DNA from: Siniperca chuatsi | Lineage: Eukaryota; Chordata; Actinopteri; Centrarchiformes; Sinipercidae | Length of the DNA: 64,000 nt | Assembly: GCF_020085105.1 (NCBI RefSeq) | Contig: NC_058063.1 | Span: 6,172,501-6,236,500, forward strand | Direction: 5' to 3' | In this document: positions 24,611 through 64,000 of the stretch, piece after piece | Layout of the letters: each line of letters starts with the position of its first letter | How positions within the stretch are numbered: position 1 is the first letter of the stretch | Notes under the pieces: generated by a model | The model's database searches: none | What the model was told of the DNA's origin: nothing | What the model saw: the letters and a program-made list of their open reading frames with translations, nothing else | Translations under genes and position numbers: made by a program

Positions 24611-25154
24611 GTAAGTATGGTCGTTTTAATGTTTTTTCGCTTTTCGTTTCTGTTGCGTCATTTGTCGCTGTAGTTTTCACGCGTCTCCAAGCGTACATAC
24701 AATGCATACAAATTTCAGTGGTTGAACTGAATTTAATTTTGTTCAGTTACATGAGACAAAATGGCTAATACCTGGTAGCTAATGTTAGCTTGCTAACAGC
24801 AACCATTCAAATGAAATGAGCCTGGCTAGCAGCTCTCTGACCAGGAAGTGTAAACACGGAAACGTCTTCGACTTCAGCTTTTTTTTTTAGTCAGCGGTAT
24901 TTGAAGTTGTGTAACGTGAGCTTTTGGTTAATAAGAACGAAAGTAAACATGCCACTTGGTGACGGATCTGATTATCGTTTTGCTCCGGTGGCCCTTAGCC
25001 TACAGTCGCCTCGATTACAAGCGTTCTATTTCCTGATAATGACGTTATACATTCACCATTTGCTCTTTCACTGGTTACTTTCTGTTACTACATGGTGGCC
25101 TCTGTTGTCTCACCCTGTCTCTCCCCCTTTTTAGAAAAGTACACTAGAGCAACA

Positions 25155-26301
25155 ATGGTGAAGATTTTCATTGGGAACCTGTCTCAGCACGCTGGGAAGG
25201 AGGAAGTGGAAGCTCTGTTTACGCAGTATGGCACAGTGACAGAATGCGCCAAGTACAAAAACTATGCTTTTGTCCATATGGAAGACCGCAAGTCGGCCAC
25301 CAAAGCCATTCGTGAGCTCCATCTGTATAAGCTGAATGGCAGGCCCATCAATGTGGAGCCCAGCAGAGGGAAGAACCAGGGCCCTGTGAAGCTCCACATA
25401 GCCAATGTAGAAAAGGGCTTCGATAAGGAGCTCCGCGATCTGTTTGAAGAGTACGGCACAGTCACAGAGTGTTCCATTGTCAAGAACTTTGCCTTTGTGC
25501 ACATGTCCAATTCTGATGAGGCCATGGATGCCATACAGGGTCTGGATAACACAGAGTTTCAAGGTAAGTAAAGGTTGATATTCTACTCTATGAATGAAAG
25601 GATTGGAAGTAGTTGGGGTTTCCATACTGTTCATATTCATCCTTTTTTAGATTTGAGGGACAATGTTTTTCTCTCTCTCAGGAAAGCGCATACATGTTCA
25701 GATATCAAAAAGCAGACCCAGAGGGGAACCCGAGGAGGAGGACTATCCACCTCCGCCTGGCAGAGGAGGCTATTATCCTCCTCGCTTCCCAGGGGAGAGG
25801 CCTGAGCCTCCCTTCAGAGGCCGCATGGCCCCTTACCCTCCTCCGCCTCCGCCTATGTCGTCCCCTCCCCCGAGACGAGGAGCGTATCCCGACCGTGGCT
25901 ATGGCGAGCGAGACGGCTATGGGGTGGTTGATTACTATGAGAAATTCAGAGCCCGGCCTTACAGCATGGCAGGCTACGATGACAGGCGTTCCAGTGCCAT
26001 CCCCCCCCCTCCTCCGCCTCCTCCCTCGGCACTGGTTAGAGAACGTCTCGGAATGGGGAACCTTGACCCATACGAGCGCCGTCCGCTCCCCCCTCCTCCT
26101 CCGCCCTACATGGTCAGGGACCGAAGCCCCATCAGACGACCCCCCCCGCCGCCTGCTCCATCAGCTGGTAACGGGTACTCCTACGAGCGGTCCCGGCTCT
26201 CCCCGCTGTCCAGGGGTCCGATGTATGCAGCTCCCCGCCCCAGGGACTCCTTCTCAGAGAGAGTGCCGTTGCCGCCACCACCTCGATATGCAGGTTATTA
26301 G
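25155..26301 (+). CDS. rbm4: RBM4/Lark-family RNA-binding protein, copy 1
   Basis: Likely nuclear RNA-binding splicing/translation regulator of the RBM4 family. Coding exons 25155-25563 and 25682-26301 (phase 1 join) give 342 residues. Two RRMs: residues 2-68 (RNP2 KIFIGNL, RNP1 NYAFVHM) and about 77-145 (RNP1 NFAFVHM), ending in [20 protein letters not shown]. The CCHC zinc knuckle that follows the RRMs in mammalian RBM4 is absent; the rest is a Pro/Arg/Tyr-rich tail with polyproline runs and the RBM4-like pieces [16 protein letters not shown] and YERSRLSP. The start is the first ATG after the 5'UTR intron acceptor and opens directly into RRM1. A second copy lies 10 kb downstream. Which of the teleost rbm4 paralogues this is cannot be settled here. 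Confidence 0.85.
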
Positions 26302-32469: not shown

Positions 32470-33060
32470 TCATAAATTACACATGAGAGTCTCATCAGTC
32501 TCCAGGGGGCCAAGTACTCGGAGTTCAGCTGGGAAACTGTTCACCACACATGAGCCTGTGTCCATGACAGGTGTCGTGGTAGGCACACACATGCATGTCT
32601 CTCTGGACGGAGGCACTGGCAGCACCTCAAACAGCACCTCGAAGCTCCCCTTGGCCTCGCCAGACTCTCGGATGATCAGCATCTCGTACTCTCCGAACCG
32701 GATCAGGGCCTTGTCCGGGAGGTCCATCCTTTCCAGGTAGCCCAGTGCTGAGCTGTTCACTGACAGTAGCCCCCTCTGGCTCAAGTTCTGGATGGTGAAC
32801 AGCATGTCCGGGCTCTTGGGGGTGCGGTAGGCGTGGAGGGCCAGCTGTTTGCGGGACACCCGGATGTCGACCAGGGCGAAGGTGCAGGCCTGGGCGTCAC
32901 GGCCCAGCCTGAGAGGGTCATCTGCCGAGTGTCTGCTCCGGTTCCCCAGAGGAAGCAGCCCGTAAAGGCCCTTACAGCTCTGCTGAGGGTGGTAAAGCTT
33001 GATGTGGAGACAAGTGAGGAGATCCTCCTCTGTCTCCATTGTCTGGGTCACATTCATCAT
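32470..33060 (-). CDS. tifa: TIFA, TRAF-interacting protein with FHA domain
   Basis: Cytosolic adaptor that, after phosphorylation of an N-terminal threonine, oligomerises through its FHA domain and recruits TRAF6 to activate NF-kB (in mammals downstream of ALPK1). One uninterrupted coding exon, 196 residues (human 184). Visible: METEED with Thr10 in the position of human phospho-Thr9; FHA core LRLGRD (Gly53, Arg54), VSRKQL (Ser69, Arg70), TIQNLS; the family signature LGYLERMDLP and RFGEYEMLI; and a C-terminal P185-x-E187-x-x-E190 that fits the TRAF6-binding consensus PxExx(acidic/aromatic). Two Met codons start the ORF; either is possible. The Thr site and TRAF6 motif exclude the shorter paralogue TIFAB. 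It lies antisense between the two RBM4-like genes. Confidence 0.9.
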   Translation of the reverse strand: MMNVTQTMETEEDLLTCLHIKLYHPQQSCKGLYGLLPLGNRSRHSADDPLRLGRDAQACTFALVDIRVSRKQLALHAYRTPKSPDMLFTIQNLSQRGLLSVNSSALGYLERMDLPDKALIRFGEYEMLIIRESGEAKGSFEVLFEVLPVPPSRETCMCVPTTTPVMDTGSCVVNSFPAELRVLGPLETDETLMCNL

Positions 33061-33225
33061 GACAAAAAAAGAGGGTGAATTGACCTGTTGACACTCAGTG
33101 ATGAAAGCCTGTTGGGACAGAAGACAAACGAACCTATTAGAATTCCAGTCAGATGAGGTGGTTTACCAGTCAAAACAAAAGTAACGTACAACATGAATTG
33201 CTGCTGTTATTTGTCTGTGCCTTAC

Positions 33226-35190: not shown

Positions 35191-35199
35191 TCTTAAACA

Positions 35200-36360
35200 A
35201 TGGTGAAGATTTTTGTGGGAAATCTGCCCCGAGAGGCAGACCAGGATGAAATCAAGGCACTCTTTACCGAGTACGGCACAGTCACAGAATGTGCCATCAT
35301 CAAGAACTACGCTTTCGTCCACATGGATGACCGCAAGGCAGCCACCAAAGCCATTAAGAATCTGCACCTCTACAAGCTTCACGGCACGCCAATCAACGTG
35401 GAGGCCAGCCACGGGAAGAACCAGGGCTCAGTCAAACTGCATGTCGCGAATGTAGAAAAGGGATCTGATGACGAGCTCCGTGCTCTCTTTGAAGAGTACG
35501 GCACAGTCACAGAGTGTGCTGTTGTCAAGAACTTTGCTTTTGTACACATGTCCAACTCTGACGAGGCTATGGATGCCATCAAGGGACTGGACAACACTGA
35601 ATTTCAAGGTAAGGAAGGACATTATGTTAAACAAGTAAAGAAGTAGTTGTAACATGTTGTCATATTTTAAACCTAATTATTTAATTTGTCTTTTCTTCAT
35701 CTGTACTTTTAATTTTTTTTGTATTTAGGCAAACGCATCCATGTCCAGATTTCTAAGAGCCGTCCCAGACATGACGAACGGGATGACTACCCCCCTCCTC
35801 CTCCAGACAGGGGTGGCTATTGGCCCCCTCGCTATCCAGGAGAGAGGCACGAGCCTCCCCCACCCAGCTACCTGAGAGGCCGCCTCAGCCATATACCCCC
35901 AGGTTACCCCGCCCCTCCTCTGCCACCCCCTCCCCCTAGACGAGCTGTTTACTCTGACCGTCCCTATGAGGGTGAGAGGGACAGATACGGCGTGGTAGAT
36001 TACTATGAGAAGTACAGAGCCCGGCCGTATGGCATCGCCTCCTATGAGGACCAACGGGCTGGCGCCCCTCCTCCTCCCCCTCCCCCCTCTGCCGTCGTCC
36101 GAGACCGTCTTATGACCTCGTCGCTTGACCCATATGAGCGTCGGCCCCTTCCACCTCCTCCGTCCTCGTACTATGCCCGAGATCGCAGCCCCCTCAGGAG
36201 AGCGCCTAGCACGCCAATGCCCCCCGCCAGTAATGGCTACTCCTACGAACGCTCCCGACTCTCTCCGGTTTCCCGGGTCCCGGCATACGGAGTTCCTCGC
36301 GCCAGGGACCCCTACGCAGACCGCCTGCCTCCGCCACCGCCTGCACGCTACGCTTATTAA
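35200..36360 (+). CDS. rbm4: RBM4/Lark-family RNA-binding protein, copy 2
   Basis: Second RBM4-type RNA-binding protein, 346 residues from exons 35200-35608 and 35729-36360. The first coding exon is exactly as long as in copy 1 (409 bases) and the intron is in the same place and phase. Two RRMs (RNP2 KIFVGNL, RNP1 NYAFVHM and NFAFVHM), EYGTVTECA in both RRMs, then [20 protein letters not shown]. There is no CCHC knuckle; the tail is Pro/Tyr/Arg-rich with [32 protein letters not shown] and YERSRLSP, all shared with copy 1. RRM1 differs more between copies than RRM2. Both copies are intact, so the duplication is old and both are kept. Paralogue number within teleost rbm4 genes is not certain. 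Confidence 0.85.
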
Positions 36361-47624: not shown

Positions 47625-48110
47625 ATTCTTCTTTTCCTTTCGGCTGTTCCCTTTCAGGGGTCGCCACAGCGAATCATGTGCCTCCATCTAACCCTGTCCT
47701 CTGCATCCTCTTCACACACACCAATTAACTTCATGTCCTCTCTCACTACATCCATAAATCTCCTCTCTGGTCTTCCTCTAGACCTCCTGCCTGGCAGCTC
47801 CAACCTCAGCATCCTTCTACCAATATATTCACAGTCTCTCCTCTGAACATGTCCAAACCACCTCAATCTGGCCTCTCTGACTTTATCTCCGAAACGTCTA
47901 ACATGAGCTGTCCCTCTGATGTACTCATTCCTGATCCTGTCCATCTTCGTCACTCCCAAAGAGAACCTCAACATCTTAAGCTCTGCTACCTCCAGCTCTG
48001 CCTCTTGTCTTTTCTTCAGTGCCACTGTCTCTAAGCTGTATAACATCGCTGGTCTCACCACCGTCTTGAACACCTTTCACCTTTCCTTTCATTCTTGCTG
48101 ATACTCTTTT
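47625..48110 (-). mobile_element. RTE-type LINE fragment (3' end of ORF2)
   Basis: The minus-strand ORF 48073-47654 (139 residues) reads VVRPAMLYSLETVALKKRQ, ELKMLRFSLGVTKMDRIRNE, RLRWFGHVQRRD, RRSRGRPERRFMDVVREDM and RWRHMIRCGDP, the conserved C-terminal part of RTE-clade reverse transcriptases in fish. It remains open, so the insertion is fairly young, but the element is 5' truncated, as is usual for LINEs. Confidence 0.85.
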
Positions 48111-49600: not shown

Positions 49601-50687
49601 TTAACCACAACAGTTTTAAAAGGTGGTTGGGGCAAAATGTGATAAATTAACAATATTCAACTAAAAAAGATGTCAGTCTATTGAGTAATTAAGGTGTCTT
49701 CACTTGTAGTTTTCAGTTGCTGTTTTATGGTGTGTACTATTATGCATTGCTTTGCTTGTTATATTGCTTTAATTGTTAAGTATCTGTTTTCGTTTTTTAA
49801 TAATTTTATGCAGCATGTAATCATCTGACTCACCTTATAGATAGAAACAATGTGACATACAAATGTCAGTGAAGATGTTTTCCTGCCCTAAATTGTCCCC
49901 ATTATGCCACTTGTCAACAACTCTCAACATTGGGAATATGATAGCTAATAATCTGTCACGTTTTCAAACTAAACATCATGGAATGCATGGTAAAAATGTA
50001 AAGTTCTATTTCAACACACTTTAACGATAAATTAAGGGATTGGATCTGATTAAAAAAAAGAAAATTAAAGAATATTTTTAAGGGTTTTACTAAAAAAAGT
50101 CAATTAGTCTTTATTGTGTGTAGTTATAATGCAGAGAGCTGAAGGCTCGTCTCTCTGTAGTTGAATCTTTAAATTTAGCTGTTACTGACAGCACCGTTCA
50201 TCACCACAATGGAAAATAACAAGTAGGGCATCAACACCTTCACTATGCATGCCCACTAATGCATGCAAGCACATATCAGCAGCATTGTGCTCAGACCACA
50301 CTGTGCTTCCTGTCAGAGAATAATGTGTACCCCACTCACTCTTCCACTGCAGACCTCCATCTAAAACTCAGTATATGAGAATCTGGACATCCATCAATGT
50401 ACTTACTGGCTTTTCCTTTATCAAACACCAATCATATTCTTTTGTTCTCAGACAGACAAGGCTTACAAAATAAGCTAGATTTTGTCTGACAGACAGAAGA
50501 AAATAAAGAGATAGATGAGACTTAAAACTCAGCCTAGCCAAAAAGATTTCAAATTTGACATGCATATATGTTTATTAAAAAAATAGATTTTTGGTGATGG
50601 CAACACATATGGTAACAAGTGATGGGAACTCCTCCAACACACTAAAGCAGTTCAACTCTGAGCTGCAGTTCCAGTTGTTTCCTGAGT
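49601..50687. other. spacer and 3' flank of Ig-receptor copy A
   Basis: From about 50130 the sequence belongs to the Ig-receptor array: gagagctgaaggc, the cttcctgtcagagaataatg block and the gcagacctccatcta and caaacaccaatcatattctt blocks recur downstream of each copy. 49601-50130 is A/T-rich with nothing recognised. Confidence 0.5.
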
Positions 50688-51921
50688 CTATCTGGTGGCA
50701 GCGTACACCACGTTTGGCTCCAGCTCACTCTCTGATGCAGGCCTGCGGTTTCTTTTTGTTTTTGGATGGAAACTGGGCGCAGCATAGTTCAGGTCATCTG
50801 AGCCCAGATTCTGGTTTTGTGGATTGTGCTCTTCATTATGAGCTACATATATGACAGAGACAAATGTCAAATGTCAGTTCAACAATTCCATATTAATGTC
50901 CATAAATGTCACAGTTAATTGCATTTTGGCACAAAGGAGGTTTGGGATTATTCCGTCACATTGGCACAACTTTAAAGAGGATGAGCGAACAAAGCCAAAC
51001 ATAGATTCAGTAGCTAGTAAAAGTACCTGTCTGAAGCTTCCTGCTTTTAACAATCAGACCAATGATGAGCATTACGAGGAAAACAGTCAGACCGCCCAGG
51101 ATCACACTCATCAGCTTTGCTATTCCGTCAAACTCTTCTACAAGAAAGATGATTAAATGAAACATTAAAATGAACAAAACTGAATCCATCAACAACTTTT
51201 ACATTTTACATCAACAATCTGTTAAATGAAAGAAATATTTAGGACAATCCTACCTTCACACTCAACATTGACGACATCGTGAGATTCGTCATTGCCTTTA
51301 ATGAAATATGAGATTCATTTTATGTTGATTTTATTTTCATAAATCAGTTATGCGACTGAAATTTCAGTGTATTGAAATGGACACCAAAATAAAGACAAGA
51401 CATCAGCCTTACCGTGAACATTTAAATGTATTACATTAATCACTGTGTGTCCATCAATGTAAAATCCACAGAAATACATCCCAGAGTCAGATAAATCCAC
51501 TTGTTTGATTTTAAGAAAAACTGTGGAGATGTTGGATCTCATTTCAAAGTTTCCATTTTGAAAGCCATCACAGAATGAAGCATTCATGTTAGACCCGTAT
51601 GCAGAAGCGATACAGCTGATCTTGGCTCTGTTAACGAGTCTGGACCAGAATGTGTGAGTTGAACTTCTGGAAATGGAGCACAGCAGTGTGACCTCTTCAC
51701 CAGGCTGGACCTCCACAGTCTGAGACTCAGAAACTGAGACAGAGATCCAGCCTGAAACAAACAGCAGAGACAACAACAGAGTAACTCCTCAGCTGATAAA
51801 GCAACAACAATACATCTCAATTAATATAATAATCACATTGCAGTAGGCATTTAATAATCCAATACCAGTACTTACTGAGGCTGCAGAGAAGTAAGGCTGA
51901 AAGCAAGGTAGAGTTCATCAT
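50688..51921 (-). CDS. Ig V-domain transmembrane receptor, copy A
   Basis: Predicted type I surface receptor of the immunoglobulin superfamily, probably a leukocyte receptor. Exons on the minus strand: 51921-51876, 51751-51413, 51295-51254, 51137-51027, 50842-50688; phases fit, 230 residues. Signal peptide MMNSTLLSALLLCSL; one V-type domain with Cys40 and Cys110 (DSGMYFCG), Trp51, and an extra pair Cys62/Cys76; sequons at Asn72 and Asn89; short stalk; transmembrane segment SVILGGLTVFLVMLIIGLIV without charged residues; tail with LNYAAP (Tyr199) and VVYAAT (Tyr226). The first resembles an ITIM but has Pro at +3. There is no J-like FGxG, so it is not an antigen-receptor or typical NITR V domain. 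Family resembles unnamed teleost CD300/SIRP-like receptors; no symbol is justified. Confidence 0.8.
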
Positions 51922-51999
51922 TGTGCGTGATCGTCTCGCTGCAATGACCCTTCATATCACTGAGCTCTTGTACAGAGGGTTTTGTTGGAAATAGGCGGA

Positions 52000-53431
52000 G
52001 TGTTGTACATGTTCATCTCTTAGTTCAAACTGGCCACATAAAGTACTTCCGAACAAGAAGTGCAAAAGCCTCTTCAGAACCTCAAAGAGTCATTTATGAA
52101 GTTCACAGTACAACACAAAGGTATTCTTCAGCATGTTATTTGAAAATGAAACCTAATGTTCCACCCAAAGTCCTTAAAAAAATATATCAGTGTTAATATT
52201 TAAAAGTTAACTGTACTCTTCTCATCTAATAAGGAAGCTATTTTAAGCTTTTCTTAACCCTGAGCTTAAATAATGTCTTCATACTACAACTGATAGGACG
52301 CCTAACATTAGAATTAATGTTGGGTGATCCACACTCACGTCTCATTTTGTCCAAACAACACTTCTTTTTGAGGGTATTGGCTTTTAATTGTACAAGAGGC
52401 CTTCGCCACAGCAGACATTTTAACATAGTAGGAAAAGCACAGGTGTTGCTAATGACATCAATGATGGCTCTGTTCTCAGTGTCCCAGTGAGCCAGCATGC
52501 ACAACGGCAGGAGCCTGAAACTGAAGCGGCTAAATGGAATTCAGCCATCATTCATTTTATTATTTACACCCGTGCGCTCCCTACTGTGACAGGTCAAAAT
52601 GTCCTCTGTGAAAAAGGTCCATAGTGGCCCCCCTTGCTCTCAACAGAGGCCACATGTGGTCTCACAAGAGGAATAAAGATCATGTCTGTCTTTGGCATAC
52701 AGAATTACAAATCATGGCTGTCAAGATGAGCTCAAACCTTTTTAGGTTACGAGTAAGTGTTACATCAGTTCTGTCATCAACACAGTCTATCAAGAGTGAG
52801 ATAAAGCCAAAAAGTACAGGTTTTTATTATTATTTGTTGCTGATGACTGTTTCTTACATTGTGAAAGTTACACACTGGAGAAAATAGCATGCAGCTGAAG
52901 GCCAGTCTTCCTGTGGTGAGACTTTATTTTAGGCTGATACAGACAGGACTGTTTGTTACAGTGGAAAGTGCCAGGACGGGCAGGTGGAGGACATAATCCA
53001 AAGACACTGAGGGCCTGAGTAGCTGCTGTGTCCTTTGCATTTTTCAGCTGGACATTTAGCACTCAAATATAGGCTGCCAGGCTGTGATGTCAGCTGTTAA
53101 TAACAAATCCAGTTTCTATAATGTGAAGTCTATAATTTTCAAAAACATCTGTACAACGTAGAGGCTGATTTCCTTTTCTTGACAGAAGAAAGTCAGCCTG
53201 TATTCACTGCTTCAGGCCTCATGATTTTCACCTCAGGCTGTCCTCAGCCCACACTGTGCTGTCTCTTGCTGTCAAACAAGTGATGTGTAGCTCACTCACT
53301 CCTCCACTGCTGCAGACCTCCATCTAACTTTAACTGTAAGAGACTCTGGACAGTCATCAGTGTCTTCACAGGCCCCTCCTCCATCAAACACCAATCATAT
53401 TTTTTTAGACATCATTGAAAAGATAGACTTT

Positions 53432-53503
<72 letters not shown>

Positions 53504-53683
53504 GAGATGATGGAGCAGGTGAGAATTAAAACACAGCACTACCAAACATTTGCATGAATATAAGCTTTTTATTTCAGTATGTATTTTTACAAAGGTATGG
53601 TAACTTGAGCCACACAAAATCCCTTCAACACATTAATATAATAAGGCATCAGTTTTACTCTGATCTGCAGTTACAGTTGCTTC
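52000..53683. other. intergenic spacer of tandem unit 1
   Basis: Non-coding spacer between copies A and B, nearly identical to 55000-56645. It begins just 5' of copy A (gcggagtgttgtacatg, the likely promoter side) and ends with the 3' flank of copy B. It includes an (AG)n run at 53435-53501 (about 33 units) and recurrent flank blocks (ctgcagacctccatcta, caaacaccaatcatat). Confidence 0.7.
53435..53501. repeat. (AG)n microsatellite, long allele
   Basis: About 33 AG units. The equivalent place in the duplicate unit (56445-56463) has only about nine, the largest length difference seen between the two units. Confidence 0.95.
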
Positions 53684-54926
53684 CTAAGTCTTCCTGCTGG
53701 CAGCGTAAATAACATGAGTTTCCACTTCTCTCTCTGATGCAGGCCTGCGGTTTCTTTTTGTTTTCGGATGGAAACTGGGCGCAGCATAGTTCAGGTCATC
53801 TGAGCCCAGATTCTGGTTTTGTGGATTGTGCTCTTCATTATGAGCTACATATATGACAGAGACAAATGTCAAATGTCAGTTCAACAATTCCATATTATTG
53901 TCCATAAATGTCACAGTTAATTGCATTTTGGCACAAAGGAGGTTTGGGATTATTCCGTCACATTGGCACAACTTTAAAGAGGATGAGCGAACAAAGCCAA
54001 ACATAGATTCAGTAGCTAGTAAAAGTACCTGTCTGAAGCTTCCTGCTTTTAACAATCAGACAAATGATGAGCATTATGAGGAAAACAGTCAGACCGCCCA
54101 GGATCACACTCATCAGCTTTGCTATTCCGTCAAACTCTTCTACAAGAAAGATGATTAAATGAAACATTAAAATGAACAAAACTGAATCCATCAACAACTT
54201 TTACATTTTACATCAACAATCTGTTAAATGAAAGCAATATTTAGGACAATCCTACCTTCACACTCAACAGTGACGACATCGTGAGATTCGTCATTGCCTT
54301 TAATGAAATATGAGATTCATTTTATGTTGATTTTATTTTCATAAATCAGTTATGCGACTGAAATTTCAGTGTATTGAAATGGACACCAAAATAAAGACAA
54401 GACATCAGCCTTACCGTGAACATTTAAATGTATTACATTAATCACTGTGTGTCCATCAATGTAAAATCCACAGAAATACATCCCAGAGTCAGATAAATCC
54501 ACTTGTTTGATTTTAAGAAAAACTGTGGAGATGTTGGATCTCATTTCAAAGTTTCCATTTTGAAAGCCATCACAGAATGAAGCATTCATGTTAGACCCGT
54601 ATGCAGAAGCGATACAGCTGATCTTGGCTCTGTTAACGAGTCTGGACCAGAATGTGTGAGTTGAACTTCTGGAAATGTTGGAGCACAGCAGTGTGACCTC
54701 TTCGCCAGACTGGACCTCCACAGTCTGAGACTCAGAAACTGAGACAGAGATCCAGCCTGAAACAAACAGCAGAGACAACAACAGAGTAACTCCTCAGCTG
54801 ATAAAGCAACAACAATACATCTCAATTAATATAATAATCACATTGCAGTAGGCGTTTAATAATCCAATACCAGTACTTACTGAGGCTGCAGAGAAGTAAG
54901 GCTGAAAGCAAGGTAGAGTTCATCAT
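53684..54926 (-). CDS. Ig V-domain transmembrane receptor, copy B (chimeric tail)
   Basis: Same receptor type and exon plan as copy A: 54926-54881, 54756-54415, 54297-54256, 54139-54029, 53844-53684; 233 residues. Nearly identical to copy A through the signal peptide, V domain, stalk and membrane segment. Differences include one extra Asn in the V domain (LLCSNIS, restoring a sequon) and Asn to Thr in the stalk (DVVTVECE). The tail starts like A (LNYAAPSF) but ends EREVETHVIYAASRKT, the ending encoded by pseudogene C rather than A. The switch occurs in a ~27 bp tract (53729-53755) shared by all three. Tyr motifs are LNYAAP and VIYAAS. Intact and presumably expressed. Confidence 0.8.
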
Positions 54927-54989
54927 TGTGCGTGATCGTCTCGCTGCAATGACCCTTCATATCATTGAGCTCTTGTACAGAGGGTTTTG

Positions 54990-56645
54990 TTGGAAATAGG
55001 CGGAGTGTTGTACATGTTCATCTCTTAGTTCAAACTGGCCACATAAAGTACTTCCGAACAAGAAGTGCAAAAGCCCCTTCAGAACCTCAAAGAGTCATTT
55101 ATGAAGTTCACAGTACAACACAAAGGTATTCTTCAGCATGTTATTTGAAAATGAAACCTAATGTTCCACCAAAAGTCCTTAAAAAAATATATCAGTGTTA
55201 ATATTTAAAAGTTAACTGTACTCTTCTCATATAATAACGAAGCTATTTTAAGCTTTTCTTAACCCTGAGCTTAAATAATGTCTTCATACTACAACTGATA
55301 GGACACCTAACATTAGAATTAATGTTGGGTGATCCACACTCACGTCTCATTTTGTCCAAACAACACTTCTTTTTGAGGGTATTGGCTTTTAATAGTACAA
55401 GAGGCCTTCTCCACAGCAGACATTTTTAACATAGTAGGAAAAGCACAGGTGTTACTAATAACATCAATGATGGCTCTGTTCTCAGTGTCCCAGTGAGCCA
55501 GCATGCACAACGGCAGGAGCCTGAAACTGAAGCAGCTAAATGGAATTCAGCCATCATTCATTTTATTATTTACACCCGTGCTCTCCCTACTGTGACAGGT
55601 CAAATTGTCCTCTGTGAAAAAGGTCTATAGTGAAGGGCCCCCCTTGCTCTCAACAGAGGCCACATGTGGCCTCACAAGAGGAATAAAGATCATGTCTGTC
55701 TTTGGCATATAGAATTACAAATCATGGCTGTCAAGATGAGCTCAAACCTTTTTAGGTTACGAGTAAGTGTTACATCAGTTCTGTCATCAACACAGTCTAT
55801 CAAGAGTGAGATAAAGCCAAAAAGTACAGGTTTTTATTATTATTTGTTTCGGATGACTGTTTCTTACATTGTGAAAGTTACACACTGGAGAAAATAGCAT
55901 GCAGCTGAAGGCCAGTCTTCCTGTGGTGAGACTTTATTTTAGGCTGATACAGACAGGACTGTTTGTTACAGTGGAAAGTGCCAGGACGGGCAGGTGGAGG
56001 ACATAATCCAAAGACACTGAGGGCCTGAGTAGCTGCTGTGTCCTTTGCATTTTTCAGCTGGACATTTAGCACTCAAATATAGGCTGCCAGGCTGTGATGT
56101 CAGCTGTTAATAACAAATCCAGTTTCTATAATGTGAAGTCTATAATTTTCAAAAACATCTGTACAACGTAGAGGCTGATTTCCTTTTCTTGACAGAAGAA
56201 AGTCAGCCTGTATTCACTGCTTCAGGCCTCATGATGTTCACCTCAGGCTGTCCTCAGCCCACACTGTGCTGTCTCTTGCTGTCAAACAAGTGATGTGTAG
56301 CTCACTCACTCCTCCACTGCTGCAGACCTCCATCTAACTTTAACTATAAGAGACTCTGGACAGTCATCAGTGTCTTCACAGGCCCCTCCTCCATCAAACA
56401 CCAATCATATTTTTTTAGACATCATTGAAAAGATAGACTTTGGCAGAGAGAGAGAGAGAGAGGGTGAGATGATGGAGCAGGTGAGAATTAAAACACAGCA
56501 CTACCAAACATTTGCATGAATATAAGCTTTTTATTTCAGTATGTATTTTTACAAAGGTATGGTAACTTGAGCCACACAAAATCCCTTCAACACATTAATA
56601 TAATAAGGCATCAGTTTTACTCTGATCTGCAGTTACAGTTGCTTC
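54990..56645. other. intergenic spacer of tandem unit 2
   Basis: Near-identical duplicate of about 51990-53683, with scattered single-base and short indel differences and a shorter (AG)n run at 56445-56463. No coding sequence. Confidence 0.7.
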
Positions 56646-57660
56646 CTAAGTCTTCCTGCTGGCAGCGTAAATAACATGAGTTTCCACTTCTCTCTCTGAT
56701 GCAGGCCTGCGGTTTCTTATTGCTGTTGAATACAAAGTCAGTGCTGCGTCCTTCAGGTCATCAGAGTCCACATTCTGTAAATAAGAGTCAGACAACTCTT
56801 ACGTACAGGGCTTCAGAAACAACAGTCAGATGATGTCAGAAACGCTAAAATAATCGGAACTCTATAATAAATAAATAATCCTGAGTTAAAGTGATTCATG
56901 TGATCTTTCAAACCTTAGACCATACATAAGTGGTTAACAGGGGTTGGCACTTTCGCCTCACAGCAAGGAGGTTTATGGGTTCACACCTTGTACAAAACCC
57001 AGAAGAAGCCAAAGCTCCAATTGAATACAAGACAGCGCTCATGAAGTACCTGTCTGAAGTTTCTTGATTTTGACAACCAGACCAATGATGACCATAATGA
57101 GGAAAACAGTCAGAGCCCCCCGGATCACACTGGTCAGGCTTGGTATTCCACCAGGCTCTTCTACACGGAAATTGAAAAACTTTCTATAGATCTAGCAAAC
57201 ATTTAAATAGACAGAACTGCCTCTGTGGATGAGCTGTTTCAGCTTCCAACAATTTACGAACAGCTACCTGCACAATGACAGATATTTTAACAAGAGGCAG
57301 CGAGGACCTATAATTTAGGGTGCATGTTCTCATGAGGTACACCAGCGCCTTCCAAAATGATGACGATAAAATTCCTCTAATGTTGTTGATGTTATTTAGA
57401 CACATATTCAACAGAATCCTTATTTTAACAATAACCAATTAGACCACATATGTTTCTTTCCAATAAAAGACAGACAAGACTTAACAACAATCCTATCTTG
57501 AACATTTAAATAAGTTGTGCTGATAATAACTGAGTTTCTGCTTACATAAAATCCACAGAAATACAGTCCAGAGGCAGATAAATCCACTTGTTTAATTTTG
57601 ACTCAGAACCTGAGACAGAAGTAAAAGTAGTAAGAAGTAAAGCTGTCACTGCAATGGCTT
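56646..57660 (-). pseudogene. Ig V-domain receptor, copy C (pseudogene)
   Basis: The last exon (56774-56646) is open and encodes NVDSDDLKDAALTLYSTAIR followed by the same ending as copy B. The transmembrane exon (57160-57050) is intact with SVIRGALTVFLIMVIIGLVV. No exon joining them in phase could be found; a repeat has landed in that interval. The V exon is reduced to its last third ([19 protein letters not shown], near 57603-57505) fused to a few bases of its start, so about two thirds including the first canonical Cys is gone. No signal-peptide exon is seen. It cannot make the family's protein. It retains the tail intron that A and B lack. Confidence 0.75.
56935..56995 (+). repeat. short SINE-like fragment inside copy C
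   Basis: ggttggcactttcgcctcac, agcaaggaggtttatgggtt and cacacc resemble the fish repeat phrase 'ggttagcactgtcgcctcacagcaagaaggt..gggttcgaa', as remembered. It lies between the last two exons of copy C. Confidence 0.5.
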
Positions 57661-59478
57661 TTTATAACATTGGAAGGGCGTTTAAAGAGGTGGGCTGTGT
57701 TTGATGCTTATCTTGTTGTTTACACTGATCACACAAGCGCTACACTACAAAGTTATTCTTAAACTTCAGTTGTTCTAAATTCTTTAATGGACAAAGACAA
57801 AATTAAGAATTTTTAACTTTTACGGTAATTATGGTTTATACTTGTGATGTTGATGATGGTAATGTAACACACCATTTTCCAACCTATTCCAACACATGTA
57901 TCATGATCGATGTTTTTTTCCACTCATGGTCATAAAGGCAGGGATATCCAGATACAGCATGTACTAGGCTTTCCATGTTGTTTTTGCGGTTGTGTCCAAT
58001 TTCATCAAGTGTCACCGCGCTGTTCCGTTGTCGGTGATTGCGTCAACAAAAACCGTCCGCCAAAACAGCAAAGCAACTATCAATGCTGGTTTATTTATTA
58101 TTTCTCGTTTTCTCTTGTTAAAAACAAAACTTGCCGAAGTTCCAGCTGCCTAGTTTGTTTATGTTGCCATCTTGTTTTGTATGAAAAAGTAACCCTCACC
58201 CTAATCAAGAGGGGCGAAGATGTCGACAAAACATCAAAATGAACATCAGTGCCAGCAGTATACAGAGTATTACACAATTTGAGGTAAATTGTGGGTGTTA
58301 CTTACATTGTGAAAGTTAACACTGCAGATAATAGTAAACATATTTCTTACCATGTCAAAAAACTGCATATTGACATCATCTTTGCTTCATAATGTAAGCT
58401 TGATAAGTTGCTTACAATAGGTTACATTTTCCTATCAGGCCAGTGACTGATAAGTAGCTTTAAAACATAGATATGTTGCCGGGCAGTCTGGCAAATCTGA
58501 AGCCATGCTTAAATAAAGCTTGACATTTTATCTGTGTGTGTGATCTGTGTGTGATTGGGATCCTCCAGGTAGCTGCAAACACAGTTGCATTTAGTACACA
58601 TCACAGTGGAGATGGATGGGAGCTGCACCTGCTGTGATCTGTCATGTCCCAAACATGTCCAGTCTGTGGAGGGAACGGTTTCATATGAGGCTGTGCAGCA
58701 TCTTTTCACGAGTTTTAGAGTTTGAGGCCTCTCTCGTGTTACAGATTCCTCACCCATGCTGTTACTTTAGTGATGTACTGTTTTTTTTTTTTTTTAAAGC
58801 TTCTATGTATACATATGTAGAGGCTGATCTTTTTGTCTGCTTGACATCAACCACTGTTCTTTTTTAATTATTCTCTTACGGAGCTTTAACTCTTAACAGG
58901 CCTCATGATTTGCACCTCAGTTGTGTTCAAACCACACTGTGGTGTCTCTTCCTGTCAAACAAGTGAGGTGTTGCTGATGTCTAGCTAGTTTTCATACCCT
59001 GGGCCTGAGAGAAATGGTATTTCATTCAGCTGCATTTTTTATGGTTGACATGACAGCTAAACTTGAAACTGCACTGCTGCAGACCTCCATCGAACTCTCA
59101 CTATAAGAGAATCTATACAGTCGTCAGTGATTTTACTGGAACCTCCTCTATCAAACACCACTCATGTTCTTCCTCTCCTCAGATTGACATGTAAGGCAGT
59201 CAAAAGTATGACACACAGGAAAAATAAAGAAATATTATATATTTTGCATGAATCTTTGTCACCAAGCTGGTCTTTTTGACAACATGATAGTAACTATGAT
59301 ACTATGGTAATGGTTTAAAGTGATGTACACCAACCAACCACACTAAAACATACCAGTGTGTTAAAAATAAAACTCAAGATCCACTTTAAGCTGCAGTCCC
59401 AGGTGCTTCCTCGGTCTGTCTGGTGGCTGAATAAATAGCATTTGGCTCTCCTTCTCATTCTGATGCAGGCCTGTGGTT
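57661..59478. other. spacer between copies C and D
   Basis: Contains the recurrent array flank blocks (cttcctgtcaaacaagtgag near 58949, ctgcagacctccatcgaact near 59077). A segment at 58130-58230 is similar to 61095-61220 (cagctgcctag..tgttgccatcttg..aaaaagtaaccc), an older shared piece of the repeat unit. The 57910-58242 frame is open but not recognised. Confidence 0.55.
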
Positions 59479-60737
59479 TCATTTTGTTTTTGGACGAAAA
59501 GTCACTGTTGCATAGTTCAGTTCTGAGCCCAGACTCTGTGAATAAAACTATTTTCAGTCACTCATCTCACATAGCTGACAATAAGAAGACAATATCATTG
59601 ACTGACAAATGACTGTAGCACCTGCTGAAATACAAACATTTAAATATGAAACTTAACAAACTTCACCTCTGTCCGTTGTAGATTCTGTTCTTCAGCATGA
59701 CCTAATGACAGAAAAAAACATGTTTGGTCAATTGACTAGCACTGTATTGAACAATGTTGCTGTTGCATTTTGTCCAGTAGGAAGTTGTGGATCATATAGG
59801 CTCAAAAAAGGATGTGTAAATACAGTAAAACTAAGTACAATTACCTTTCTGAAGCTTTTTGATTTTAACAGCAAGACAAATGATGACCATAAAGAGGAAA
59901 ATAATCAGACCGCCCAGGATCACACTCAGCTTGGTTATTCCATCCAACACTTCTACAAGAAAGATTGTTCGGTTAGATTCTGTACATTTTACCTCTAGTT
60001 GCTTGAGATCTGATTAATATTTAAATGGACAAAAATGCCTGACAGAAATTTTAATGTGAGGCAGGAAGAATTTAAAATTTGTCTGATAAATCTAAAATCT
60101 CAAACTTAGTTCTACATCGCGAGGTTTACCTAAATTAAATATTAAGGTGATAGTATTCCATCAAAATCCTTATTTTGACAAGCAGACAATTAGGCCATCA
60201 ATCAAAAGACAGAGCAAACTTTACAAAAATCTTACCTTGGACGTCTAAATATGTTGCATCGACAATAACCGGGCTTTTGTTTATGTAAAATCCACAGAAA
60301 TACAGTCCAGAGTCAGATAAATCCACTTGCTTGATTTTGAGAAAGATAGTAGAGATGTTAGATCTCATTTCAAATGTTCCATTTTGATATCCATCACAGA
60401 ACATAGCAGGGTTATGAGGCTTGAACATAAAGGCGATACAATGGGGCTTGGATCGCTTGACCACTCTGAACCAGATTATCTGAGTGGGAGAACTTGAAAA
60501 GTTGGAGCACAGCAGCGTGACTTCTTCACCAGACTGGACCTCCACAGCCTGAGACTCAGAAACTGAGACAGAGATCCAGCCTGAAACAAACAACAGAAAT
60601 ATTGATCATGTAATCAACATCTTTATATGATTTTATTAATAGCAAGCAATGTCAGTGCTGTGGAGTAATTCCATGGCAGTAGGCTACTTACTGAAGCTGC
60701 AGAGAATTACAGCTGTAGTCAAAGAGAAGTTCCTCAT
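59479..60737 (-). CDS. Ig V-domain transmembrane receptor, copy D (ITIM-bearing)
   Basis: Diverged member of the same family. Exons on the minus strand: 60737-60692, 60580-60236, 59952-59845, 59701-59667, 59535-59479; 196 residues. Signal peptide [16 protein letters not shown] domain with LLCSNFS, the extra Cys pair ([12 protein letters not shown]) and DSGLYFCG; a membrane segment [19 protein letters not shown] without charge; tail with [16 protein letters not shown] (Tyr186) fits the ITIM consensus (I/V/L/S)xYxx(L/V/I), so an inhibitory receptor that could recruit SHP-type phosphatases is the likeliest reading. The stalk exon seen in A and B is missing. A stop replaces the Arg codon after RPKTK, so the second tyrosine motif (downstream AIYSAT) is not translated. 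The tail uses two exons where A and B have one. Confidence 0.75.
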
Positions 60738-61465
60738 TGTGCGTATGATCGTGCCACTGAAATGACGCACTACAACACTGAGGTCATGTCAGAGGGTCTG
60801 AAGAGGCGGGGCATTTTTCAATATATTCTGTATCTTGTTATTAGCACACAAAATCAAAGCCTTAAGGGGTGACTTATGAAGTTTACAGTACAACACAAAG
60901 TTAAGCCCATTTCACATCTCGGGATGGGGATGAGCTCACGAAGAGGCCCGTCATATTGTGAATTCCACTCAGTCATATTCTTAATGTTATTCCAGATACT
61001 ATCAAAATCCTGATCAAGAGCTACACTATTCAAGTACTTTGGAAGTGCTGCTTAACCACCATATGTTACCTGCTCTCTTCCTTTTAAGAACGTTGTGAAA
61101 TTCCAGCTTCCCAGATTTCCTTTTTGTCATTGTGTTCTTGTTCGGTAAAAAGTAACCCGAACCCTTAACAAAAGGTCCAAAGGTCATGATCGTGCATGTA
61201 TAATGTCAAATCATGGGCATCAAAATTAACATCCATTTTTCGCGATGTTCTCGCCGTTTACGCTCCTGAACATGTTATAAATATATTAAAACTGGAACAT
61301 GAGCGCCTTTTTTGTCTTGAAGACTTCACTCATGATACAGATACAGGTACCTCACTGACACAGACAGTGCTGTACCACATTGGGAATTCTAGGTGACAAT
61401 GAATACTTTTATTGTTGATACTCTAAGTACATTTTGCTGCTGATAATACAGATTAAGCTAATTTC
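60738..61465. other. spacer between copies D and E
   Basis: Immediately 5' of copy D lies ccgcctcttcagaccctctg on the minus strand, similar in place to the cgcctatttcc element before A and B, so the promoter side is conserved. The remainder includes flank blocks shared with other units (catgatacagatacag near 61330 and 62706). Confidence 0.5.
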
Positions 61466-62030
61466 CACTCAGAGTTGCAGTTCCAGTTGTGTCCTGAGTC
61501 TCTCTGGTGGCAGGATACTCGACATTTAGCACAATCTGTGCTACATGGCTGTTTGTTTTTGGGTAAAAAAAAGAGTGACAGAAAAAGAAAAGAAAAGACT
61601 TAGCGTGATATTAAATTGCACAAGTCCAAAAACGTTCCATCATAAAGACACAACTTTAAAGACGCTGTGAACAACAATAAAGCAAATACAAAATAGACAC
61701 AGTAGCTCTCAATAAGTACCTGTTATACTTATATAGCGCCTTTCTAGTCTTTTTCCAACTACTCAAAGCGCTTTAACTACATATCACATTCACCCCATTC
61801 ACACACAGAAGGCACAATTTGGGGTTCAGTGTCTTGCCCAAGTACACTTCGACATGTGGGCTGACGGAAGCTGGGATCGAACCGCCACCCTTTCGATTGG
61901 TGGACGACCCGCTCTACCACTAAGTCGCCCGCAATGACGACCACCATGTGGAAAATAAACAGACCGCCCAGGATCACACTCATCAGCTTTGCTATTCCAG
62001 ACTCTACACAACGGTTATTAAATTAGACTC
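61466..62030 (-). pseudogene. Ig V-domain receptor, copy E (relic)
   Basis: A tail-exon remnant (61480-61570, with gtcctgagtctctctggtgg on the plus strand) and the 5' part of the transmembrane exon (about 61935-61997, encoding LMSVILGGLFIFHMVVVIA) remain. A SINE occupies the rest of that exon. I found no V exon or signal exon between 62030 and 63900, so only debris of this unit survives. Confidence 0.65.
61729..61934 (-). mobile_element. tRNA-derived SINE inserted in a receptor exon
   Basis: On the minus strand the head reads gcgggcgacttagtggtaga, gcgggtcgtcc and then gtggcggttcgatcccagct, giving Pol III box A (TGGTAGAGCGGG) and box B (GGTTCGATCCC). The body contains cttgggcaagacactgaacc and the end reads agcgctttgagtag, aaaggcgctatataagtata, an L2-like tail typical of teleost SINEs. 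It directly abuts receptor exon sequence, and about 30 bases of that exon are missing at the insertion point. Confidence 0.85.
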
Positions 62031-63909
62031 TGCCTATAGTGGCTTGAGACCACGAAATCTTCAAGCTTACCTTGCATGCATGAATTCCAATTGTCTTTAT
62101 GTTCTGGAGCTTTCCAGAAATGCAGCTCCAAGACATCTAACAACTTTCAGTGCTGCAGACAAGGACATACTGTTTAGGTTCAAAACCCAGATCTACAGAT
62201 GGGCAGTCAAGGAAAAATAAAGCTGTGTGTAAATCAAGATTTTTATTTGAAATGTGTATCTCTGATTAAGATCCATCATGTTGCTGCAAACAACTTGCAC
62301 AGCAAAGACTGAGTACACATGACAGCAGAGACGGATGTGACCTGCTCCTGTTGTAGCTTTGCTGTGGTCTGTCATGTCTTAAAAGCGTGCAGCCTGAAGC
62401 CGTCCTATGAGGCTGAGCAAATGTCACACTGCTTCAGGCATCTTTTCACAAGTTTGAAAGACACTGATGCACCGTGTGGAGGTGAACTGGTGGTGTGAGT
62501 CTGAGGTGTTAAGGTGTTGCCTGTGATTTACCTCCACATGCATGCTCACTGATCTTTACCAATACAATATAGCATATATTGTAAATTCACATTAAAAATG
62601 TCTTCCTGAAGTAATTTCAGTTCGGTGGGAACATGAAGACCTTTGTTGTGTGTGGTTATGATGCAGAGAGCTGAAGGCCGAGCTTCCTGTAGTTGAGATC
62701 TCAGTCATGATACAGATACAGATATCTCACTGAGATCAATAGTGCTATTTGTTACTGCAGTGCAACTATGTGCAGGTAAGGGTCATATGTATTTGTTTTT
62801 ACAAATGCAACAATGAATAATTTTTTAAATACGTTTCATTTTTAATTCAGACATTTAGCATACCTTCACACACACACACACGATATGATATTACAGTTAA
62901 CGTATTCAGTTTCCACATTGATTCATTTTGTTTTTCAGATGATTCTGTTGAAATGGTTCTTATTGTGTCAACTTGACAGAAGACAGTACACAATTGTTCA
63001 TTGCTTGATTTCACATTTTATTTCGCCTCACCTCATGATTCTCACATCAGCTGTGCTCTGCCCACATTGTGCTCTCTCTTCCTGTCAAACAAGTGATGTG
63101 AAACTCACTCTCTCCTCCACTGCTGCAGACCTCCATCTAACTCACTATAAACCCTCAGTCATCAATGTCCTTATTTCAACTCCTCCATCAAACGAAAGAG
63201 AAAATGTACTCTAATTATCTCAAATGTTTCCAATTTTGCATGAATACATAGCATTTATTGCAATATTACCTTTTTTTAAACCTCACATAGGTGATCTTAA
63301 TTCCTCCTACCCATCACTTATAAACAAAAATCACACTGGCAGATTATTATGATAAAGCATCAGTTTTGCTTTCTTCCTGAGTCCATCTGCTGACAGAGGG
63401 ATAACCGAATGATCAATAGTTAGCGTGATGTCAGACTCAGGCTCAGCTCCTCGCCCTGATTTCCATCAAAAACTGCGCTACTTGTCACGTTTACTTTCAA
63501 AAGTTTAAACACTCCACGGAAGCTGTCACTGAAAAGTCTGTTCTTGTCACAGCATACTGTTTACCGATAACATTCAACCTTCTATATCTTCCCATTGGGA
63601 AAACAAAGATTTCTTGGTATCAATCTTTGGAAACATGAAGGCCTTGTTGTTGATTCATTAAACACCAATGATATTCTCTTGCTCTCTATCTAAGACAAAT
63701 TGAAGACAAACAAAACAAGTAAGAAAGAGACTTTGGCTGGAGAGTAGAATTAAAATTGTAGCAGAGATAGCACAGTTTGCATGAATACAGAATCTTTATT
63801 ACAAAATGAGAATTTTTTCGACAATGATGGTAAGTCCTCCTTTAGTAGCAGTTCAATATGATAACGCATCAGTTCCACTCTGAGCTGCTGTTCCAGATGT
63901 TTCCTGAGT
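62031..63909. other. spacer of the array before copy F
   Basis: No coding exon recognised. 62240-62460 is similar to 58520-58720 (gctgcaaac..gtacaca..cagcagagacggatg..ctgtcatgt), and 63070-63190 repeats the flank blocks found 3' of the other copies. A short (CA)n run lies at 62868-62881. Confidence 0.55.
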
Positions 63910-64000
63910 CTATCTGGTGGCAGCATACACAACATTTGACTCCAGCTGCTTCTCTGATGCAGGCCTTCTGCTGCTTTTTGCTTTTGGGTGGAAACTCAGC
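63910..64000 (-). CDS. Ig V-domain receptor, copy F (partial, last exon)
   Basis: The minus strand from the right edge encodes LSFHPKAKSSRRPASEKQ, then LESNVVYAATR and a stop (63912-63910). This matches the end of copy A (SFHPKTKRNRRPASESELEP, NVVYAATR). The rest of the gene lies beyond the window. The exon is open as far as it goes, so this may be a further working copy. Confidence 0.7.
   Translation of the reverse strand, partial: LSFHPKAKSSRRPASEKQLESNVVYAATR

Follow-up and report, generated by a model that had tools for sequence, protein, structure and literature searches.

KIR and the other tandem natural killer (NK) receptors of mammals are encoded by germline arrays shaped by unequal crossover and carry tails with immunoreceptor tyrosine-based inhibitory motifs (ITIMs); however, they are built from C2/I-type domains and include activating members. 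Most members of the fish NITR family possess, besides a variable (V) domain, an I domain with six conserved cysteines. The joining (J) motif of NITR is FGXGTXLXV, either FGXG or TXLX[VLI] being taken as J-like under the loosest definition, and the NITR block is located on zebrafish chr7 and medaka chr18 in linkage with men1 (parts of PMC2442602). The NILT genes of salmonids and cyprinids have six exons, the first four introns being in phase 1 and the fifth in phase 0, and encode V domains with extra cysteines spaced CX3C, CX6C or CX7C (parts of PMC3022915). CD300 molecules are marked by a WCR motif in strand C (parts of PMC3031540), and the CD28/PD-1 group, with nine members on several chromosomes, combines a single V domain with a stalk, an ITIM in PD-1 and YxNx or YxxM motifs (parts of PMC11599192). 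In this study, a 64,000-nucleotide stretch of the Siniperca chuatsi genome (the window, C22:6172501-6236500 on contig NC_058063.1, whose own numbering is used for the units below) was analyzed, the right-hand part of which holds a tandem array of receptor genes. The array probably represents a germline family of single-V inhibitory leukocyte receptors that occupies one 223-kb cluster abutting the NITR cluster and that is distinct from NITR.

The extent of the family was determined by a genome-wide protein search with the V domain of one window gene, unit D (719-Mb genome, E <= 0.001, 150 of 166 candidates scored). Among 56 matches, 38 belong to the receptor family (37 at E < 1e-7 and one weaker at 5e-5), and the remaining 18 are weak (28-36 bits) and correspond to other V domains. 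The family V-exon matches, at least 38 in number, span 223 kb, with 33 on the minus strand and five on the plus strand, and since all of them are confined to C22:6223911-6446512 the window represents the left edge of the cluster. A composite tail-exon search (E <= 0.01) placed all 36 of its matches inside the cluster, V and tail matches together falling within C22:6223191-6446512, and this is the sole place in the genome with family-level matches. A chance match is excluded by the E values of the unit D V domain against other full-length copies (1e-26 to 1e-46) and by the conserved exon order. The original prediction was of a single-strand array of at least six units at 50130..64000, ranging from near-identical pairs to relics. 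This array was confirmed to be genuine and of that character; however, it does not end at the window edge, with about 210 kb more lying beyond, and is larger than first described. The minus strand carries units A-F between 50.7 kb and the end of the window. Units A and B are intact, and the stretches duplicated between them, offset by about 3.0 kb, show 97.9% identity over 2820 bp; units C, D and E are damaged, and unit F is interrupted by the window end, its V exon (65083-64772) lying just beyond. Their features, all on the minus strand, are as follows.

51876..51921, unit A exon 1, signal peptide start (MMNSTLLSALLLCSL), 46 nucleotides (nt), phase-1 donor
51413..51751, unit A V exon, phase 1-1, Cys pair 62/76 present (Pfam V-set E 1e-11)
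51254..51295, unit A hinge exon, GNDESHDVVNVECE, with a cysteine
51027..51137, unit A transmembrane (TM) exon, span uncharged
50688..50842, unit A tail exon, linker and tail fused, LNYAAP and NVVYAATR motifs
54881..54926, unit B exon 1
54415..54756, unit B V exon
54256..54297, unit B hinge exon, with a cysteine
54029..54139, unit B TM exon
53684..53844, unit B hybrid tail exon, front A-type and rear C-type
53730..53755, 26-bp run identical in A, B and C, breakpoint in the unit B tail exon (coordinates hand-counted from the exon start)
56646..57602, unit C relic overall, comprising a V 3' fragment (57602-57501), a TM exon (57160-57050) and a tail with LKDAAL, the proximal tyrosine being lost
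60692..60737, unit D exon 1
60236..60580, unit D V exon, Cys pair present
59419..59944, unit D downstream part, comprising a TM exon (~59944-59843), a linker exon (~59693-59664) and a tail (~59541-59419) with two stop codons
61909..61998, unit E, a TM-exon relic alone
63910..64000, unit F tail exon, interrupted by the window end and running on to 64035

A typical unit consists of six exons, namely signal (43-46 nt), V (about 342 nt), hinge (42 nt), membrane span, short linker and tail, with introns 1-4 in phase 1 and intron 5 in phase 0; intron 5 is missing in A and B, in which the linker and tail are therefore fused in frame. Unit D has intact signal and V exons and no recognisable hinge exon. 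The single V exon of this layout bears out the prediction of one V domain per receptor, and the signal, hinge and short linker exons are additional to the parts given there. Exon content was assessed by tblastn at 30 fetched loci, with matches accepted within about 1.5 kb of the V exon, and every exon type was matched at 18 of them, or at 19 if L035, the tail match of which is a 14-residue fragment, is counted. Splice sites were examined for a subset of units, window genes among them, and were retained in most of these, although some TM acceptors were ambiguous. Across 15 aligned V rows, neither the canonical cysteines nor the strand-C tryptophan varies. In Pfam, V-set scores best (E 1e-11 and 1e-12), ahead of other general immunoglobulin (Ig) models, some of which are barely over the cut-off.

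An uncharged membrane span had been proposed, and by eye this stands for 26 of the 27 loci at which the TM exon was matched; it fails in damaged copies, namely L026, which has a lysine in the span and a stop in its V exon, and the window relics C and E, which have charged residues there. The pairing of tyrosine motifs in the tail also stood in part. Two motifs are present, and in the 25 tails found near the 30 loci (a count that takes in the broken copies L021 and L037 and the L035 fragment) there are 19 canonical ITIMs, four cases in which the tyrosine has been lost (LKDAAL) and two, A and B, with LNYAAP. Four units contain, 1.4-2.5 kb downstream of the ITIM tail exon, a second tail exon that lacks tyrosine, at the following positions.

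C22:6257910, second tyrosine-less tail exon
C22:6326686, second tyrosine-less tail exon
C22:6331795, second tyrosine-less tail exon
C22:6342869, second tyrosine-less tail exon

Judging from this arrangement, tandem ITIM and tyrosine-less tail exons may permit alternative tails by splice switching.

The proposed duplication by unequal exchange was traced to a specific point in unit B. In an alignment of the tail regions of A, B and C, unit B is 97-100% identical to A upstream of a switch and 98-100% identical to C downstream of it, except for a length difference at a CT repeat, and the switch itself is the 26-bp run common to the three units, which lies between the proximal and distal tyrosine motifs. 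The simplest reading of the alignment is that unit B arose by one unequal crossover between two tail exons, which would have yielded a new gene with the distal tail and 3' region swapped. Unit B thus provides a clean and recent example (the duplicated stretch is 2.1% diverged from A) of a crossover that swaps part of a signalling tail. A conserved block was also observed a few hundred bases downstream of the tail exons (window 53329-53213, 56336-56223 and 63142-63031, as well as further along the cluster); it shows about 82-99% identity between units and is probably a 3' untranslated region or duplicated flank.

The extra cysteine pair (62/76) that had been described as conserved was scored in the 31 of the 38 family V matches that were fetched, L025 being read by eye as having both residues. 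Both cysteines are present in 19 V exons, neither in 11 and one only in a single broken copy, so that the pair is a feature of most copies and not of all. Its spacing is C-X13-C, and it encloses a 13-residue loop at the position of complementarity-determining region 2 (CDR2). The family aligns without gaps to catfish NITR10 through the region between the two residues; by general V-domain geometry, two cysteines placed in this manner would be opposed across the C'-C'' hairpin. By eye on the V tree, a single branch separates the two states at both sites, and the broken copy shows one additional loss of a single cysteine. The pair-less clade has a hinge that reads like GSDESHEDVDRKSK, and in 10 of its 11 copies the beginning of the TM exon (ECDRITML) supplies a cysteine in place of one in the hinge. 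L038 retains the pair yet otherwise resembles the pair-less clade, showing its KSK hinge and ECD start, and L025, which also has the pair, has a hinge without cysteine. Variability and the ratio of nonsynonymous to synonymous divergence (dN/dS) were analyzed in four sub-clades without L026, L034, L037 and L050 (stops, breakage or truncation); the loop-variability set also omits L031, which equals L032, and the unclustered L021, L029, L036 and L038 are in no sub-clade. The loop between the cysteines differs by 0.191 per site within sub-clades compared with 0.093 elsewhere (column permutation P 0.013), the CDR3-like end being at least as variable (0.216) and the CDR1-like part showing 0.159.

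A less likely reading is that the array is a V-only NITR subfamily, grown at the border of the NITR cluster after losing its I domain and J segment. V-only NITR forms have been published (parts of PMC2442602), and the NITR cluster on C22 begins 3.0 kb past the last family V exon. With a family profile searched against the PDB, no single-domain match exceeds catfish NITR10 and NITR11 (36.8 bits for one domain); only a chain of two antibody domains (about 20 bits per domain) ranks above them, and a heavy-chain antibody V domain (VHH; 30.6 bits) and T-cell receptor (TCR) alpha chains (29.6) stand below. The tail layouts are alike (LHYVAL...CVYSSIK in the local NITR and LNYAAL...VVYAATR in the family), both having an ITIM and a second distal tyrosine, and the two families further share tandem clustering, birth-and-death evolution and, as regards the inhibitory NITR forms, an uncharged span. 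Sister-group comparisons by the approximately unbiased (AU) test rejected none of five candidates (p-AU 0.14-0.31), a family+NITR clade having p-AU 0.28. However, with a single query sequence VHH (32.5 bits) ranks above NITR10 (28.0 bits), and among V domains of the same genome, the identities of which other than NITR were assigned by sequence reading, NITR (24-35 bits) is almost equalled by Ig light-chain-like V domains on C21 (29-33) and TCR-like V domains (26-28), with Ig heavy-like (20-25) and other V domains (6-22) also scored; in pairwise comparison, an Ig-light-chain-like V is the highest-scoring match from outside the family. A tree of 64 V domains recovers the 31 family sequences (100/99) and the 10 NITR sequences (99/95) as separate clades, with NITR joined to a TCR-like V (85/81) and not to the family. 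Furthermore, none of 39 genome matches to the local NITR I domain lies in the family cluster (23 at C22:6450299-6561707, two of which are pieces of one domain, and 16 at C8:9025939-9142737), and an FGXG J motif was found in none of 31 family V exons. The proposed absence of a J motif therefore holds for FGXG, whereas 11 of the 31, counted on the alignment, end in T-x-L-x-V, which is J-like by the loosest NITR definition (parts of PMC2442602). Owing to the missing I domain and the separate V clade, filing as NITR was not accepted, the C-X13-C pair of most copies examined being a further difference. The original prediction of NITR-type likeness without a clean fit agrees with the V tree, but the comparison can now be drawn more sharply, with NITR V domains among the nearest by profile, a cluster at close range and a similar tail. 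The nearest NITR (C22:6449445-6450724, L053 945-2224) carries a J motif in its V exon at C22:6449523; its I domain is encoded by a separate exon and its membrane span contains an arginine, from which it appears to be an activating form. Its separate V and I exons are unlike those of the fused-exon NITRs further on, and the second NITR cluster, on C8, has no family match beside it. Of the three block markers (men1, map4k2 and rtn3), men1 was examined and is at C22:2296509 on the same chromosome, 3.9 Mb from the window, a position consistent with the zebrafish chr7/medaka chr18 NITR block.

Membership of the NILT/CD300/TREM/pIgR-like group is disfavoured and must be considered very unlikely, even though the likeness in gene structure is close. 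The exon number, the intron phases (apart from the absent intron 5 in A and B), the 46-nt first exon (in unit A, for instance), the single V domain, the ITIM tail and the tight clustering all match NILT (parts of PMC3022915), CD300 likewise has a single V domain with two cysteine pairs, and pIgR entries appear at about 26 bits in the PDB profile search. However, the extra cysteines of the family are spaced C-X13-C or are missing (11 of 31) and not CX3C, CX6C or CX7C; strand C reads WFR, WSR, WFT or WFK and shows no WCR motif of the CD300 kind; the extra pair is at another position than in CD300; and no activating-type charged span occurs among the copies with an intact V exon, whereas CD300 has both inhibitory and activating members. 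On the cysteine pattern, filing under CD300 or NILT was rejected, and the view that the family does not fit CD300 cleanly was upheld by the position and spacing of the pair and by strand C. Carp SITR differs in having two Ig domains and no TM region. Costimulatory receptors of the CD28/PD-1 type with a second V disulfide and a stalk cysteine are scarcely credible here: the single V domain, stalk and ITIM recall PD-1, but a tandem array of 38 V exons in a single place contrasts with nine members on several chromosomes (parts of PMC11599192), the tails carry YAAV/YAAL and VVYxAT instead of YxNx or YxxM, the strand-C tryptophan is kept, and the 60 best PDB matches shown for the family profile include no CD28-family receptor. 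This filing was rejected on the array, the tails and the PDB ranking. No molecule named SIRP, LITR or DICP is among the same 60 matches, their reference sequences not having been compared. That the array is mostly a graveyard of decaying duplicates with little function is improbable, although units C, D and E are broken, L026, L034, L037 and L050 likewise contain stops, breaks or truncations, and dN/dS over the whole domain ranges from 0.96 to 2.5 among the four sub-clades (lowest P 0.052); against this stand the loci with all exon types, the ITIMs in 19 of 25 tails, the invariant V-domain residues and the retained splice sites. A scan of spliced unit A against the prokaryote-oriented NCBIfam library gave no match, five exact family strings gave no match in a paper-text search, and no description of the family was found in open-licence PMC papers as judged by titles and the starts of abstracts. 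Similar unnamed predicted proteins are presumably present in other percomorph fish, which is a lead only and not a test. Uncharacterised V-set proteins in zebrafish NK-like cells, which are other genes than these, fit the general picture (parts of PMC5340972).

Several observations weigh against the reading as a distinct family of inhibitory receptors with a stapled loop. The inhibitory role is a prediction from sequence, several units are broken, and the proximal motif of the intact window genes A and B, LNYAAP, is not a canonical ITIM. The distal motif has T or S at +3. A hinge cysteine (for example GSDEPHDDVDSKC) was found at 10 of the 30 fetched loci. The joint change of the two extra cysteines amounts to one event, on a tree the columns of which included both sites, so that it speaks weakly for a disulfide, and an AlphaFold model from three window V domains, with a predicted local distance difference test score (pLDDT) of 59 and a predicted template modelling score (pTM) of 0.53, is a poor basis for one. 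As regards the loop, its window ranks 8th of 95 for variability, and in one of the four sub-clades, CCz, it is not more variable than the remainder (0.077 vs 0.080). Loop dN exceeds dS in all four sub-clades, but with codon bootstrap P 0.10-0.20 and with a dS of zero in two sub-clades of few sequences, and positive selection on the loop is only suggestive; the whole-domain dN/dS of about 1 or more is also compatible with relaxed constraint.

The receptor read from a typical unit comprises a signal peptide, one V domain, a short hinge, an uncharged span and a tail with an ITIM and a distal tyrosine motif. It would work like an inhibitory NITR or KIR-type receptor, although on its sequence features it is filed as a member of neither. 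The variable loops would bind ligand, with the extra pair forming a predicted disulfide that staples the C'-C'' (CDR2) hairpin and with the hinge cysteine, where present, making dimers possible; the ITIM would then be phosphorylated and recruit SHP-type phosphatases, which would damp leukocyte activation, and turnover of the copies would keep the receptor set changing. A fuller proposal is offered tentatively: that this unnamed fish family outside NITR carries a disulfide-stapled, hypervariable CDR2 hairpin that is gained or lost as a unit from one sub-clade to another, that unequal crossover in tail exons shuffles ligand-binding domains between ITIM-bearing and tyrosine-less tails, and that in some units both tails in series could allow splice switching.

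To the left of the cluster, the window contains two genes with RRM domains (Pfam) at 24999-26301 (+) and 35197-36360 (+), which are 79% identical over 421 bp and presumably RBM4-like. Between them lies a gene with an FHA domain (Pfam E 7e-5) at 32470-33162 (-), which from its sequence we take to be TIFA-like. Just outside the cluster edge, an open frame at 47654-48076 (-) reads by eye like the end of a retrotransposon reverse transcriptase and has no Pfam match.

The medaka NITR survey began from the I domain (parts of PMC2442602). If the present genes are expressed, they would form a large germline repertoire beside the NITRs that could be missed or misnamed by I-domain-based NITR surveys, and would add a fast-turning set of inhibitory receptors to the biology of fish NK and myeloid cells.

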